Source: Sphingomonas mucosissima
GTDB taxonomy: Bacteria; Pseudomonadota; Alphaproteobacteria; Sphingomonadales; Sphingomonadaceae
NCBI RefSeq assembly: GCF_002197665.1
Contig: NZ_NBBJ01000003.1
Location: 186,001 to 250,000, forward strand
DNA length: 64,000 nucleotides
Direction of reading: 5' to 3'
The notes beneath the pieces were generated by a model. The model was not told the DNA's origin and made no database searches. It saw only the letters and a program-made list of their open reading frames with translations. This document shows positions 27,411 to 33,694 of the stretch, piece after piece. Every line of letters begins with the position of its first letter. The first letter of the stretch is position 1. The translations under genes were made by a program, and so were the position numbers.

Positions 27411-27486
27411 GCCCAGGTAGCTCAGTTGGTAGAGCATGCGACTGAAAATCGCAGTGTCGGCGGTTCGATCCCGTCCCTGGGCACCA
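27411..27486 (+). tRNA. tRNA-Phe (GAA)
   Basis: 76 bases folding as a standard cloverleaf: acceptor GCCCAGG/CCTGGGC, D arm GCTC...GAGC, anticodon loop CTGAAAATC with anticodon GAA, T arm with GGTTCGATCC, and encoded CCA end. Lies 30 bases after yacG. Confidence 0.97.
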
Positions 27487-27664
27487 CATTCTCCCTGCTG
27501 AATGCCGCGATCAATTGGTAGCCATTCCGCCGTCGGCGCGTCGATCCACGTCGGTTCCCATGCCGCTGCACAGGTCACCACCGAACCGACGTGGCCACTC
27601 CGGAGCAGCCAGTTAAACTTATGCTCTCCCAGCGCGTTCTTGGGGCAGGTGCAGGAGTGAGCGA

Positions 27665-27805
27665 ATGAAACCGTCCCATATACCCGGAAACGAGCCCGAT
27701 CCTGGCGACATGTCCGTCGAACCGGGCATGCCCGTGCTCACTGGCGACACAGAGGAGCACAGCTTGCTCGAAGACGAGGCCGATACGCCCGGCGATTTCG
27801 CCTGA
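27665..27805 (+). CDS. Tiny acidic hypothetical protein
   Basis: A 46-codon ORF (MKPSHIPGNEPDPGDMSVEP at the start, ending DEADTPGDFA) preceded by AGGAGTGAGCG, a strong ribosome site. Highly acidic, no hydrophobic segment, probably disordered. It is followed after 17 bases by a second tiny acidic ORF with its own ribosome site, which favours both being real. Function unknown. Confidence 0.5.
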   Translation: MKPSHIPGNEPDPGDMSVEPGMPVLTGDTEEHSLLEDEADTPGDFA

Positions 27806-27822
27806 ACTGCAGGAGAGCAAAG

Positions 27823-27933
27823 ATGACCGATCCTGACCAGAACGAGCCGAGCGAAGCCGAGAAAGCTGACGAGATGGAAAAGGCACAGGAGGACGCCGCC
27901 GAGGAACGTGAAAACAACGGCGGCTATCAGTAA
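27823..27933 (+). CDS. Tiny charged hypothetical protein
   Basis: A 36-codon ORF (MTDPDQNEPSEAEKADEMEK then AQEDAAEERENNGGYQ) with AGGAGAGCAAAG before the ATG. Almost entirely Glu, Asp, Lys and Ala, so likely a single charged helix. I have the impression that very short proteins ending in GGYQ recur in sphingomonads, but I cannot check. Probably co-transcribed with the preceding tiny ORF. Confidence 0.55.
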   Translation: MTDPDQNEPSEAEKADEMEKAQEDAAEERENNGGYQ

Positions 27934-28906
27934 TCTCGGGTAAGAGGCGAGCCGCCGAACGCACCCTAAACAGGGCTCTTACCGACGGTTCGCCTAATCC
28001 ACCGCGCGCAGAGACAAGGCTTCGTGCTGTGGCGGTGTGGGGGGTGGCAGTTGATCCAGGAATGCCGCGGTTCCGCGATTGCCGCTTCCTGGGGAGCCAC
28101 AGGCACTCACTGTTTACCCGCACCGGCACGCAAGGCGCGCGGCTCCACTTGCAAGTCAACGTCAATTACGAGAGGCGCAGCTTGAGTGGGGCTGACACGA
28201 GGCTAGGTGCAGACGCTCTGCGGAAGGATGCGTTCCGCCCAATCTCGCGCAATAGGCGTGTACCGGTGCGCTGATCTATCGCCGCGCTGACACAACAGTG
28301 ACCGCAGGAGACCGGCAGTATTGCAGGTACGATCGCGTACGTCCGCCGGCCGCCTCTTTCATCTGCAGGCTAATCCGCTCGAAGCGATCGCGTTCCTCCC
28401 GTGCGACGATATGAGCGAAGTGACCTCCCTCGAAGTAGGTTTGTTCCGAATAGCTCGCGATGATCAACCCCCTTTTGTGTCGCTCCGGGAACCCGCTCAG
28501 ACAGAATCTGTTCCCCCGCGTTGTCGGCAAACCGTTGAAAACGAGAACTCTTGTAGGCAGAGTAGCATCCTGCTGCTTCGGGTCGACGCTATCCGACATC
28601 AATCGCGGGTTGTCGTCACCGGCGCCGTACTCACCCTTGCCGAACCATGGTTTCCTGTCACCGATGCCTCTCGCGCGCTCGGACTGACCGCCTTAGGCCT
28701 GCGATGGTGAGGCGTATCCCAACTAGCCACGCCGTTCCCGACACGTCGCGTTAGCGCTGGGACGGCCGCTATTCACAACACCCCGCTGCACCGAACGATT
28801 TGAGCAACAAATAGTGGGCTGCGACAGCATCAGAAACAATCGATGGCGGATCGGTCGCGAGTGCCGGTCATTATTTCAAGATATCAAGGCGGCGACCCCG
28901 CGAAAT
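27934..28906. other. Gene-poor stretch, no supported gene
   Basis: About 970 bases of reduced and uneven GC content. Open frames exist (28321-28710 on plus, 28276-28602 on minus, the second slightly more protein-like) but none has a ribosome site, a recognisable domain or the third-position GC bias of nearby genes. It separates the infA-yacG-tRNA block from the polyketide operon and could be decayed DNA. Confidence 0.5.
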
Positions 28907-29995
28907 TCAGACCCGGGTGGCGCGCGCCAGCAGCGGCAACAGCGCGGGGGAAAGATGTGCCAGGCGGACGGCTAGGGCAGCCAGCCAGGGTCGTTCGCCG
29001 GCACGCCAGGCAGCGGCAGCGATCCCGATCGGGCGCTGCAACCGTGCGGCAAATTGCCGCTGGAACGACGGCGCAGCCTGAGGCCCGCCAACGTGATACG
29101 CATCGGCCGCGGCAAGGGCGCTCGCTACGGCAATCGCCATCCCTTCGCCTGCCAGCGACGGGATGACACCTGCCTGATCACCAAGCCGGAAGACACCGGC
29201 CGTGCTCGACATGGCGCGCCAGCCGTAGGGCACGTTCGCCACCGCATCGATCGGGGCGCCGGACACGCGCAGCGCAAGCCGATCGCCGAGCGCCGGCAGT
29301 TCCCCCGCCAGCGCGGTGAGCAGCCGTTCCGGTGTCCCGGCCTCCTGCAGGCGCGACCGGCGCACGGCCATGCAGAGGTTGCCGCTGCCGTCCTCCTGCC
29401 GCACCAGCCCGGCATAACCGGCGCGTGTCAGATGCAGCTCGATCGCATCCCCGACCAAACGGTCCAGCACCCTGCCGGGCGCAAGACGGACCCGCAGCCC
29501 AAGCGTCGGATCGTCGCCGCGGGCCCCGGTCGGGCGTGCCAGACCGCGTGTGTCGTGCTTGCCGCTCGCCAGGAACAGTGCCTCGGCCGCGATGCATGCG
29601 CCATCGTCAAGCCGGGCCACGCCATTCGCGACTGCGCGCACGCCAATGCCGCGCTCGATCACCGCGCCGGCGTTGCCAGCGGCGGCCAGCAATATGGTAT
29701 CGAGCCGACGCCGGGACACCCCGCGGGCAGGCGACGGCAGCGGCGCTTCCGCCACACCGTCACGGGTCACCAGCCGGACGCGTGTCACAGCCGCCGCGTT
29801 GAGGGTCTCGCCAGGAATACCGAGCCGTTCCAGCATCGCCAGCATATGCCAGCTCAGAAAGCCGCCACATAGCGCGTCGGGCGTTTCGCGCGATCGCTCG
29901 ATCAGCAGGTGCGGCATGCCCATGCGCGCGAGGCGGATCGCAAGCGTAGCCCCCGCCGGGCCGCCGCCCACGATCAGCGCCGGCGTTCGACGCAT
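28907..29995 (-). CDS. FAD-dependent oxidoreductase of the polyketide operon
   Basis: A 362-residue flavoprotein of the geranylgeranyl-reductase / PHBH-like group. N-terminal FAD loop ALIVGGGPAGATLAIRLA, then CGGFLSWHMLAMLERLG, and the second FAD motif FRLGDQAGVIPSLAGEGMAIAV around residues 285-305. It probably hydroxylates or reduces the aromatic product of the upstream type III polyketide synthase. ATG at 29995 overlaps the methyltransferase gene by 22 bases. The open frame continues upstream beyond this ATG, but only as an out-of-frame reading of the methyltransferase. Confidence 0.85.
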   Translation of the reverse strand: MRRTPALIVGGGPAGATLAIRLARMGMPHLLIERSRETPDALCGGFLSWHMLAMLERLGIPGETLNAAAVTRVRLVTRDGVAEAPLPSPARGVSRRRLDTILLAAAGNAGAVIERGIGVRAVANGVARLDDGACIAAEALFLASGKHDTRGLARPTGARGDDPTLGLRVRLAPGRVLDRLVGDAIELHLTRAGYAGLVRQEDGSGNLCMAVRRSRLQEAGTPERLLTALAGELPALGDRLALRVSGAPIDAVANVPYGWRAMSSTAGVFRLGDQAGVIPSLAGEGMAIAVASALAAADAYHVGGPQAAPSFQRQFAARLQRPIGIAAAAWRAGERPWLAALAVRLAHLSPALLPLLARATRV

Positions 29996-30663
29996 AACCG
30001 AAACGGAAAGACGCGCGATACGCGTGCATCGACGATCCCGGCCTGCGCTAGCAGTTCCCCCCACTCTGCCGGGCGAAACGAGCGGGCAATCGATACCGTC
30101 CCGTCGTGTCGAACAATGTGATGCCACCGCGCGATCCATGCCAGCAGCGGGAAGCCGCGATGGGCCATCGCGTGACGCATCAAGTCGTTGACGAACCAAC
30201 CCGCCGCAGCATTCGCCTCCATGAAACGGAGAAATGCGATCAGTTCGTTCTGCGTCATGTGATGCGCGACGAGGCTGGAGATGATCACATCCCACTTCTG
30301 ATCGGCCAACTCTGCATAATCGCCCGTGATCCAGCGGATCGACGATCCTGCCGGCGTGTGTTCGCGCGCCGCCGCCTCGCTGCGCGGATTGAGATCCACC
30401 CCGACCAGCTCGACGCGAACGCCGCGCCGCGCCGACCAGCGTTCGATCCGGCGCAGCATGTCGCCATCGCCGAATCCGACGTCGAGGATGCGCAGCCGGG
30501 ATCGCCCGCGGGCCAACCGGCCCAAGAACGCGAGCGTCGGCCGCGCCGCGAGCGTCACCGTATTCACGCGCGCCAGGTCCGCGACAACCGCGGCATAGAC
30601 TGCCGGGTCGAGATCGTCGGCGTCCATCAGTTCGCTGGCGTCGCGTCGGGTAGCGAGACTCAC
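29974..30663 (-). CDS. Class I SAM-dependent methyltransferase
   Basis: A 229-residue methyltransferase with SAM-binding motif I ILDVGFGDGDMLRRIE (about residues 75-90), an acidic end of strand 2 (LVGVDLNPRSE), and the motif IV/post region DVIISSLVAHHM. Likely methylates the phenolic or quinone product of the type III polyketide synthase. GTG start overlaps the synthase stop codon in a GTGA arrangement, so translation is coupled. Middle gene of the three-gene operon. Confidence 0.87.
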   Translation of the reverse strand: MSLATRRDASELMDADDLDPAVYAAVVADLARVNTVTLAARPTLAFLGRLARGRSRLRILDVGFGDGDMLRRIERWSARRGVRVELVGVDLNPRSEAAAREHTPAGSSIRWITGDYAELADQKWDVIISSLVAHHMTQNELIAFLRFMEANAAAGWFVNDLMRHAMAHRGFPLLAWIARWHHIVRHDGTVSIARSFRPAEWGELLAQAGIVDARVSRVFPFRLCVERRR

Positions 30664-31718
30664 GCGGCGCTCGCGAAGCGAAAGCCCTCGGCAGCCAGGC
30701 CGGGACCGAAGGCAAGTGCGACGCCCTGGTCGATGCGCGGACCGTCAAGCAGGCGCGCCAGCACGAACATCAGCGTGGACGACGACATGTTGCCATTGTC
30801 GGACAGCACGGCTCGCGAAGCGGACAAGGAGTCGTCGGGCAGATCGAGCGACCGTTCCACGGCCTCAAGGATTGAGCGCCCCCCGGCATGGACGGCCCAT
30901 CCGTCCACTGCAGCGGGTGACATCCCGCCCGTTGCCGCTAGAGCGAAGGCAGGATCGGCGAGCGCGGCCGCGATCCGGCCTGGTACTTCACCCGAGAGAT
31001 GCATCGCGAACCCATGATCGGTAACAGTCCAGCGGATCAACTCGGCGCTTTCGGGCAGCGTCGTCGCAAAGGGCTGTCCCAGATCGAACCCGCCTGACGC
31101 GCCCGTGACAAGCGCGGCGGCTGCGCCATCGCCGAACTGCAGCATGGCGAGCAGCGCCTCCAGATCGCCCGTCGCTTGCAGGTGCAGCGTCGAGAGTTCT
31201 ACCGTGATAACAAGCACGCGGGCGGCAGGCTCGGAGCGCACGATATGCCGTGCGGTTCGCAGCGCGGCAACGGCGGCATAGCATCCCATGAAGCCGATCA
31301 GGACCCGTTCGGTCGACGGCAGTAGATCGAGCCGGGCGGCGATGATCTGATCGATGCCCGGCGCGACGAAGCCGGTGCAGCTCGCCACCACCAGATGCGT
31401 GATGCCGTTAAGCGGCACCTTGCCGGCGAGATCGTCGACGGCGCGGATCGCGAGCGCCGGGGCGGCCTGTGCGTAAATGTCCATGCGCGCCGCGGTGCCC
31501 GGCCACCGATCCGCGGCGTAGAAGCCGTCGGGGCCCGTGGGATCAGACGTTTGCGGCAGCACGGACCAGCGGTGAGCGATGCCTGCGCGCCCCGCCATGC
31601 GATCAAACAATGCCGCCTCGCGCGCGCCCGTCAGCTGCTGACGCGCCCAGCCGATGAAGGCCTGATGGACGTCGTGGTGAGGAACTGCGGTCCCGATCGC
31701 GTGGAGAAAAGCAGACAA
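30660..31718 (-). CDS. Type III polyketide synthase (chalcone/alkylresorcinol synthase family)
   Basis: Homodimeric ketosynthase that extends an acyl-CoA starter with malonyl-CoA and cyclises it. 352 residues. The full catalytic triad is visible: Cys in VVASCTGFVAPGID (about residue 124), His in DGWAVHAGGRSILEAVE (about 265), Asn in SDNGNMSSSTLMF (about 300). The GFMGCYAAVAALRTA segment is typical. TTG start at 31718 is supported by GAGGG just upstream. It leads the operon synthase-methyltransferase-flavoprotein. Starter length and ring type cannot be predicted from sequence alone. Confidence 0.92.
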   Translation of the reverse strand: MSAFLHAIGTAVPHHDVHQAFIGWARQQLTGAREAALFDRMAGRAGIAHRWSVLPQTSDPTGPDGFYAADRWPGTAARMDIYAQAAPALAIRAVDDLAGKVPLNGITHLVVASCTGFVAPGIDQIIAARLDLLPSTERVLIGFMGCYAAVAALRTARHIVRSEPAARVLVITVELSTLHLQATGDLEALLAMLQFGDGAAAALVTGASGGFDLGQPFATTLPESAELIRWTVTDHGFAMHLSGEVPGRIAAALADPAFALAATGGMSPAAVDGWAVHAGGRSILEAVERSLDLPDDSLSASRAVLSDNGNMSSSTLMFVLARLLDGPRIDQGVALAFGPGLAAEGFRFASAA

Positions 31719-31906
31719 GCGCCCTCACAAGCCAAGTAATCACCCGAGAACGCGCCTGCCGTATTCATGGGGCCGCCCCGGTCACTCGTAGCCCAAATAA
31801 ATACACCCGTTTTCGTCCCGCGCCCACAGGCGGGCGTTGCTCGCTTGCTGACAAAGCGTGCTGTGCTCGTTTACCTTGTTCTGAACGGGGCAGGGAGGGC
31901 GGCCGG

Positions 31907-33694
31907 GTGAAGCATCGTCGTGAGATCGACGGGCTGCGAACGGTCGCGGTCCTGCCGGTGCTCCTGAGCCATGCAGGCGTGTCGCTCTTCGCCGGCGGGT
32001 TCGTCGGTGTGGACGTGTTCTTTGTAATCAGTGGCTACCTGATCACCGGGATCATTCTGTCGGAAATGGACGAGCAGCGCTTCTCCATTATGCGCTTCTA
32101 CGAACGGCGCACGCGCCGGCTGCTGCCTGCGCTGTTCGTCATGATGGCTGCCTGCCTGATCGCCGGCTGGTTCCTGATGAGTGCCGACGCCTATCAGAAC
32201 CTCGGGCAAAGCGTTGTCGCCACCACCGTGTTCTCGAACAACATCCTGTTGACGATGACCAGCGGCTATTGGGACATGGAGTCGCAGTTCAAGCCGCTGC
32301 TGCACACCTGGAGCCTCGGCGTCGAGGAGCAATATTACATCGCGGTGCCGCTCATCCTGGTGCTGGTGCATCGCTACCTCCGCCGGCACGTGCCGCTCGC
32401 CCTGGCGACAATCGGGGTGATCAGCTTTGCGCTTTGCCTGTGGAGCATGCGCGCGCATCCGGTCGGCAACTTCTATCTCCTGCACACCCGCGCCTGGGAA
32501 CTGGCGGCTGGCGGCTGGGCCGCGACCGTCCGGTCACCGGACGATCATCGCGGGTCTGACGCGCTCTCGATCCTCGGGCTGCTCATGATTGCGGCCACGG
32601 TGCTTGCCCTCCCGGAAGGATCGCCCTCGCCTTCCCCGGCGATTGCGCTCCCCGTCGCAGGCACGGCCCTGATCCTCCTGTACTGCCGTGCGGGCCTTGC
32701 CCACCGGGTGCTTGGTTCGCGGCTCATGGTCGGCATCGGCATGATCAGCTACAGCGCGTACCTCTGGCATCAGCCGTTATTCGCCTTCTTGCGGGTGGCG
32801 AGCAGCAGCAGCCCGCCGGTGTGGCAGTTCGTCGCCCTGATACCGGTGGCACTGTGCTTGGCCTGGGCCAGCTGGCGTTTCGTGGAGCGCCCTTTCCGCA
32901 GCCGATCGATGCGCTTTCGCACCGTGGCTGCCGTTCTGGCGCCGGCCGCATTGGCGTTGCTGCTGATCGGAGCGCTCCTGCACCTGCGCGGCGGGTTGCC
33001 ACAAAGGTTCGATGTCGCGCCCGGCGCCGACCCACCGGCCAGCTTCAAGGCGTACAATATGCGCGTGTTCGAGCTGAAGCAGGATCGCTTCCCGCCTGGA
33101 GCCCGGCAGCGCGCTTTAATCCTTGGCAACAGCACCGCGCGTGATGTCGTGAACATGGCGGGCGAAGCGGGTGCTCTGCCGGGCTATGCGATCGTCTATC
33201 GCGATGACCTAAGTCTATGCGACGGCGATCGCCTCAGTGCCAGCAAGCGCGCGCTGGTCGCGGCGGCGACGCTCGTGGTGCTGGCGTACGATCACCAGCC
33301 ACAGAGGACCTGCAGCGGATGGCAGTTGGCGCAAAGGCTCGACCTACACGGCAAAATTGTTTTCATTGGTCCCAAGGGATTCGGCGTTAACCTGAACCCG
33401 TACGCACGCCTGCCGCTGGCCCAGCGTCGGTGCGCGCGCGTCCCGTTGTCGGCTACCGCACGCGAAGCGAGCCGCCTGTACCGCGCCATCACCCCGCCAC
33501 AGCTCTACGTCGATGTCATCGCCGCCTTGTCTCCCGACGGCCGGCATGTGCCGGTGTTCGACACACAAGGACGGAGCCTCAGCGAGGATCGCGTTCATGT
33601 GACGCGGGCCGGCGCGCGTTTCGTTGGCGAGCGGGTCTTCCGGCACCCTGCCTGGCAGCGGATCGTCCGACGCGTGGCAAACGAGCGGCACTGA
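31907..33694 (+). CDS. OafA/YrhL-type acyltransferase with C-terminal SGNH-like domain
   Basis: Integral membrane O-acyltransferase (acyltransferase 3 family) of 595 residues. It starts with HRREIDGLRTVAVLPVLLSHAG, which contains the conserved Arg-x-x-x-Asp-Gly-x-Arg region and catalytic-type His, followed by FVGVDVFFVISGYLITGII and about ten membrane helices. The soluble C-terminal part (from about residue 370) looks like a periplasmic SGNH hydrolase-like domain: GNST block and a late DRVHVT (Asp-x-x-His) element. It probably transfers acetyl or other acyl groups to a surface polysaccharide or lipid. GTG start after GGGAGGG. Divergent from the polyketide operon. Confidence 0.87.
   Translation: MKHRREIDGLRTVAVLPVLLSHAGVSLFAGGFVGVDVFFVISGYLITGIILSEMDEQRFSIMRFYERRTRRLLPALFVMMAACLIAGWFLMSADAYQNLGQSVVATTVFSNNILLTMTSGYWDMESQFKPLLHTWSLGVEEQYYIAVPLILVLVHRYLRRHVPLALATIGVISFALCLWSMRAHPVGNFYLLHTRAWELAAGGWAATVRSPDDHRGSDALSILGLLMIAATVLALPEGSPSPSPAIALPVAGTALILLYCRAGLAHRVLGSRLMVGIGMISYSAYLWHQPLFAFLRVASSSSPPVWQFVALIPVALCLAWASWRFVERPFRSRSMRFRTVAAVLAPAALALLLIGALLHLRGGLPQRFDVAPGADPPASFKAYNMRVFELKQDRFPPGARQRALILGNSTARDVVNMAGEAGALPGYAIVYRDDLSLCDGDRLSASKRALVAAATLVVLAYDHQPQRTCSGWQLAQRLDLHGKIVFIGPKGFGVNLNPYARLPLAQRRCARVPLSATAREASRLYRAITPPQLYVDVIAALSPDGRHVPVFDTQGRSLSEDRVHVTRAGARFVGERVFRHPAWQRIVRRVANERH

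Follow-up and report, generated by a model that had tools for sequence, protein, structure and literature searches.

A three-gene type III polyketide synthase operon of Sphingomonas mucosissima, homologous to the hierridin-type kit and probably directed to an alkylresorcinol-derived phenolic lipid

The 64,000-nt stretch of DNA analysed here (the window) covers positions 186001-250000 of contig 3 in the 3.58-Mb genome of Sphingomonas mucosissima. Within it, three intact genes on one strand encode a type III polyketide synthase (PKS), a methyltransferase (MT) and an FAD-dependent oxidoreductase (FAD), with overlaps of 4 nt between PKS and MT and 22 nt between MT and FAD (Table 1). Because an in-frame TGA stands three codons upstream, the TTG codon of the PKS is its first possible start. 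The synthase matches Pfam Chal_sti_synt_N/C at 88 and 80 bits (cut-off 27) and carries an intact Cys-His-Asn triad, which places it in the type III PKS family, and it is the sole PF02797 match in the S. mucosissima genome. The MT matches Methyltransf_25 (44 bits, cut-off 27), and the oxidoreductase matches FAD_binding_3 (41 bits, cut-off 22). A first-pass annotation of this DNA had described three overlapping genes for a synthase with this triad, a class I MT and an FAD enzyme; coordinates, Pfam matches and triad all bear it out.

Table 1. Operon features, in window positions.
Feature	Position	Strand	Details
Type III polyketide synthase (PKS)	30660..31718	-	352 aa, TTG start, first operon gene
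Catalytic triad of PKS	C146 (31283-31281), H277 (30890-30888), N310 (30791-30789)	-	from alignment
PKS active-site pair	W230 = CHS position 256, M239 = CHS position 265	-	from alignment
Class I SAM-dependent methyltransferase (MT)	29974..30663	-	229 aa, GTG start
FAD-dependent oxidoreductase, probable monooxygenase	28907..29995	-	362 aa, ATG start; geranylgeranyl-reductase/aromatic-hydroxylase superfamily
Intergenic stretch between operon and divergent acyltransferase ORF	31719..31906	.	from sequence

The intergenic stretch may be the site of the operon promoter. Beyond it, on the plus strand and divergent from the operon, an ORF (31907-33694) encodes a membrane protein of the acyltransferase-3 kind that also matches SGNH below threshold. 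We dropped this ORF as an operon partner because a search of 39 synthase loci (29 from clade A and 10 from clade B, as defined below) gave no match to it. Downstream of the operon, a 108-aa ORF on the minus strand (28276-28602) has no Pfam match and is a putative gene only.

Related synthases were divided into a close type with at least 50% identity to the window PKS (clade A) and a type at about 30% (clade B). Within the genus, 36 of 60 other genomes encode PKS homologues at 66-80% identity and 2 of the 60 a distant PKS alone (32-33%); in other families of the order, one of 39 genomes gave a weak 26% match. The order PKS-MT-FAD on one strand is kept in all 21 same-genus loci compared (the window and 20 of the 36), amid differing surroundings. 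With homologues in 36/60 genomes and the order kept in 21/21 loci, the trio is not a chance assembly.

A class-wide sample of 289 genomes contained the clade-A type in ten besides S. mucosissima and the clade-B type in many, and a phylum sample of 299 contained a single genome outside the class (G621) with a PKS homologue, at 45% identity. Partner genes were counted with clade-A MT and FAD profiles; crude ORF calls miss some MT and FAD genes. By these profiles, both partners accompany the synthase at eight of nine clade-A loci outside the genus, with weak scores at one (L057), and locus L059 yielded neither. On clade-A plasmid loci of named organisms, the three genes stand as PKS-MT-FAD on one strand in four of seven, and the MT lies on the opposite strand in the other three (two Sphingobium, one Novosphingobium). 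The same profiles detected this MT or FAD at none of 12 clade-B loci. At both annotated clade-B loci, on a Sphingomonas and an Azospirillum plasmid, a gene of the isoprenylcysteine carboxyl methyltransferase (ICMT) family adjoins the synthase: the ICMT-type MTs of Alphaproteobacteria adjoin a different synthase clade from that of the window.

Downstream of the trio, crude ORF calls at 20 same-genus loci recovered a PBP1A-like family in 17 and an msrB-like gene in 12, both names assigned by eye from N-termini. A longer conserved operon including these genes was considered and rejected, as in S. mucosissima both lie on another contig, which lacks the trio; we take them for an ordinary chromosomal neighbourhood. 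In a comparison of window positions 27411-31718 with L196 (6387-8935), the S. mucosissima trio lies near tRNA-Phe and its genome has the nearest PBP1A-like homologue and msrB on another contig, so that the trio may have changed place or been acquired anew.

Public genomes were scanned using an alignment with a Paludisphaera synthase at its head; of 576 related stretches, we refer to the best 80, mostly from cyanobacteria and planctomycetes, as hid-like. In 63 of these best 80, the clade-A MT and FAD profiles match both neighbours of the synthase; six match by FAD alone and 11 by neither. By profile, ten of these 11 lack such neighbours, since L123 is the only one whose stretch starts directly at the synthase. 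All 63 loci with both partners have the order MT-FAD-PKS, which is that of hidABC.

As the MT and FAD families are large, we tested kinship by whole-genome searches. The synthase-adjacent MT of a Synechococcus locus (L111) found the window MT as its best match in the S. mucosissima genome (E 4e-17), with the second match weaker by 13 orders of magnitude (7e-4), and the FADs of this locus and of a Gimesia MAG (L110) had one match each, the window FAD. In the reverse direction, in both Synechococcus and the planctomycete Pan216, the window MT had the synthase-adjacent MT as its sole match and the window FAD had the synthase-adjacent FAD as its best match, adjacency being established by comparison with the contig ranges of the Paludisphaera-headed scan. 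These reciprocal best matches indicate that all three parts are homologous, beyond being the same kinds of enzyme. Identities are low (PKS 38%, to Paludisphaera; MT 26-34%; FAD 21-31%), and homology to hidA-, hidB- and hidC-type genes was judged on kin loci rather than on hidABC of Cyanobium LEGE 06113. An MT row from L071, extracted in the wrong frame, was set aside. The hidABC and planctomycete trios thus share with the window adjacent, one-strand genes for a homologous class I MT, FAD oxidoreductase and type III PKS, but run MT-FAD-PKS where the window runs PKS-MT-FAD. The window order equals hidC>hidA>hidB, described as a rarer cyanobacterial arrangement (PMC8086630).

Products have been reported for members of this kit. 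C15 and/or C17 alkylresorcinols were obtained in C. glutamicum with synthases from three species, G. maris and R. baltica (full trios) and S. maiorica (lacking the oxidoreductase gene), and the MT and FAD of G. maris added methylated alkylresorcinols (PMC10896814). Two of five planctomycete HidC-branch synthases, those of P. limnophila and A. californiensis, yielded no product; neither belongs to an operon (PMC10896814). The recombinant strains are reported to have made core compounds and no fully decorated product (PMC10896814), so the FAD step was not demonstrated in the planctomycete study either. Its authors read the G. maris MT as probably a C-methyltransferase and HidA as an O-methyltransferase (PMC10896814). 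The first-pass annotation had proposed a membrane phenolic lipid or a quinone, and the operon probably does make one or the other; the lipid reading survives because the product characterised for a homologous trio in other bacteria, alkylresorcinol, is a lipid.

A synthase phylogeny had also been proposed in that annotation as a check. We built a quick tree of 70 rows (a hand-picked 64 of 128 PKS segments and six PDB segments), from which six of the 134 best PKS segments were left out at under 300 aa (L102, L114, L117, L148, L169, L175), and a careful tree from 36 rows chosen among these 70; both trees lack the sequences of ArsB, SrsA, PkqA and HidC of Cyanobium LEGE 06113. In the careful tree, clade A (100/100), the hid-like clade (98/99) and clade B (99/97) are well supported, and a 100/99 branch splits clade B plus PKS11 from the rest. 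Because a grouping of clade A with PKS18-type synthases beat the free quick tree in an AU test (p-AU 0.84), only the boundaries of clade A, clade B and the hid-like clade are used, from the careful tree; a grouping of clade A with clade B was not rejected (p-AU 0.10). The check thus gave a firm, separate clade for the window synthase without a firm placement beside any one sister group. Given these supports and AU results, the synthase falls outside the hid-like clade, the two being separate, and the case for kinship rests on the MT, the FAD and the active site.

Active-site positions are given in CHS numbering, which we set in the alignment by motif. The PKS18 residues S143, C205, N208, A209, L266 and L348 in a figure legend of PMC6274091 agree with this numbering. 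At CHS positions 132, 197, 256, 263, 265 and 338, all 24 clade-A rows carry C, H, W, F, M and S, as do all 21 cyanobacterial and planctomycete rows; position 137 is Ala in 24/24 and 17/21 rows, respectively. PKS18, PKS11, THNS, plant stilbene synthase and clade B differ from the window at several of the compared positions. In Azotobacter vinelandii, a single position, Trp281 in ArsB and Gly284 in ArsC, determines whether resorcinol or pyrone is made, and ArsC Met293 moves with that position (PMC6274091). W230 and M239 of the window synthase are nine residues apart, the same spacing as Gly284 and Met293 of ArsC, from which, with ArsB outside the alignment, we infer that the W230 column corresponds to ArsB Trp281 and that ArsB probably has the same Trp/Met pair. 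Trp at position 256 alone is not diagnostic of resorcinol, as it also occurs in 12/12 clade-B rows and in PKS11, which its PDB entry names an alpha-pyrone synthase.

These residues bear on an alternative in which the synthase makes long-chain alkyl alpha-pyrones, as PKS18 and ArsC do, which are then methylated and oxidised with no resorcinol formed. PKS18 is the best PDB sequence match of the window PKS, has the same Ala at position 137, and belongs to the group whose placement beside clade A was not rejected and outscored the free quick tree. PKS18 nevertheless differs from the window at all six of the positions listed above, with Leu at both 256 and 338; the rows that do match the window there belong to relatives of resorcinol-making synthases from planctomycetes and cyanobacteria; and an FAD ring hydroxylase would be more sensible on a resorcinol. 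We therefore regard a pyrone as unlikely.

The tailoring enzymes are consistent with a phenolic substrate. AF2 models of the MT (pLDDT 94) and the FAD (pLDDT 80) were compared with known structures: the best match of the MT is NovO, a phenol methyltransferase, followed closely by many other methyltransferases, with CouO in the first ten. The FAD most resembles PqsL and a geranylgeranyl-reductase-like (GGR-like) protein, and its first eight matches also include 3-hydroxybenzoate 6-hydroxylase and the halogenase PltM. These fold matches would fit a phenol, do not by themselves fix methylation to carbon or oxygen, and cannot tell a hydroxylase from a reductase for the modelled FAD enzyme. The MT also has a sub-threshold match to NCBIfam PRK06202, named 'hypothetical protein' (149 bits, cut-off 243), a family that may hold tailoring methyltransferases of type III PKSs.

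Taken gene by gene, the homology to the hidABC kit makes it probable, in our judgement, that the operon directs synthesis of an alkylresorcinol-derived phenolic lipid. The synthase would load a long-chain fatty acyl thioester starter, extend it with three malonyl-CoA and cyclise the resulting tetraketide through an aldol condensation, yielding a 5-alkylresorcinol. Ring hydroxylation would fall to the FAD enzyme and methylation, on carbon or oxygen, to the class I MT, to give a membrane-soluble methylated alkyl-hydroquinol or resorcinol. Starter length, cyclisation mode, the order of tailoring and the cellular role of the product are likewise predicted from homology. The hierridin-type link turns into a specific prediction, a methylated 5-alkylresorcinol or hydroquinol, for a synthase carried by 36/60 sampled relatives, and sets it apart from the alphaproteobacterial synthases of ICMT type.

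To our knowledge, no product is known for any clade-A member. A second alternative would agree with the alkylresorcinol reading until the last step, at which the product would be oxidised to a benzoquinone and serve as an alternative respiratory electron carrier, making the operon a functional equivalent of srsABC of Streptomyces griseus and pkqABC of Mycobacterium smegmatis. These share with the window the same three activities, synthase, methyltransferase and hydroxylase, in the same gene order (PMC9927152, PMC6669644), and a hydroxylated alkylresorcinol is oxidisable to a quinone. The MTs of srs and of the window, however, are of different kinds. In Marisediminicola, whose srs cluster is 51-63% identical to the S. 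griseus genes, the srsB homologue is an ICMT (PMC6669644), whereas the window MT is class I by both Pfam and AF2 model, which rejects srs homology for it and upholds the earlier annotation's remark that it is unlike the srs class. An ICMT query found no match in the S. mucosissima genome, in a search run without a positive control, and hierridin B, the known product of a homologous trio, is a methylated phenol rather than a quinone (PMC10896814). A quinone end product thus seems rather improbable. Of the srs likeness noted in the first-pass annotation, the three-gene type III PKS operon stands; the nearest tested kin, by reciprocal MT and FAD matches and by active-site residues, is the hidABC-like trio, and the operon is better filed beside hidABC than beside srs.

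More speculatively, and with a chance we put as low, the alphaproteobacterial clade might make an alkylresorcinol class of its own, ring-methylated and hydroxylated, which would alternate between hydroquinone and quinone in the membrane of these Sphingomonas-like bacteria as a polyketide redox lipid beside ubiquinone; the synthase for such a lipid would then be present in 36 of the 60 sampled relatives. A non-lipid product from a small acyl or malonyl starter, of the DpgA or THN kind, is highly improbable: NCBIfam DpgA is the top named family, but at 97 bits against a cut-off of 425 a DpgA-like product is rejected, THNS differs from the window at CHS positions 137, 197, 256, 265 and 338, and the active-site residues are common to kin of long-chain enzymes.

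In Alphaproteobacteria, the trio has been noted before. Every type III PKS cluster in Acetobacteraceae is reported to contain PKS, MT and FAD-dependent monooxygenase, with no metabolite assigned, and the nearest outside sequences are from Azospirillum, Methylopila, Microvirga and Paracoccus (PMC8776678). These clusters belong to another family than the window, and the passage describing them makes no mention of kinship to hidABC (PMC8776678). In our data, Roseomonas and Microvirga plasmids fall in clade A, as does a Paracoccus plasmid by identity alone (49.6%). Type III PKS clusters without a similar known cluster were reported by antiSMASH in two Sphingomonas strains (PMC8170138). Among the matches listed in our literature search, titles and abstracts named no product for a Sphingomonas type III PKS, which is weak evidence of absence given that subscription journals lay mostly outside its reach.

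Several individual loci carry further variations. On a Novosphingobium pentaromativorans plasmid (L098, 2563-3995), the clade-A synthase is immediately preceded by genes for a phosphopantetheine-binding protein and a ketosynthase, a hint that the starter may be ACP-bound. In Microvirga terrae (L100, 5796-6485), the trio's FAD gene may be truncated: its annotation is that of a short 'NAD-binding protein', and an IS3 transposase lies 1.5 kb further along. In Deinococcus radiodurans (L092, 5818-6960), the order PKS-MT-FAD also occurs, but the FAD enzyme has no match to the clade-A FAD profile; here, the hydroxylase may have been replaced.
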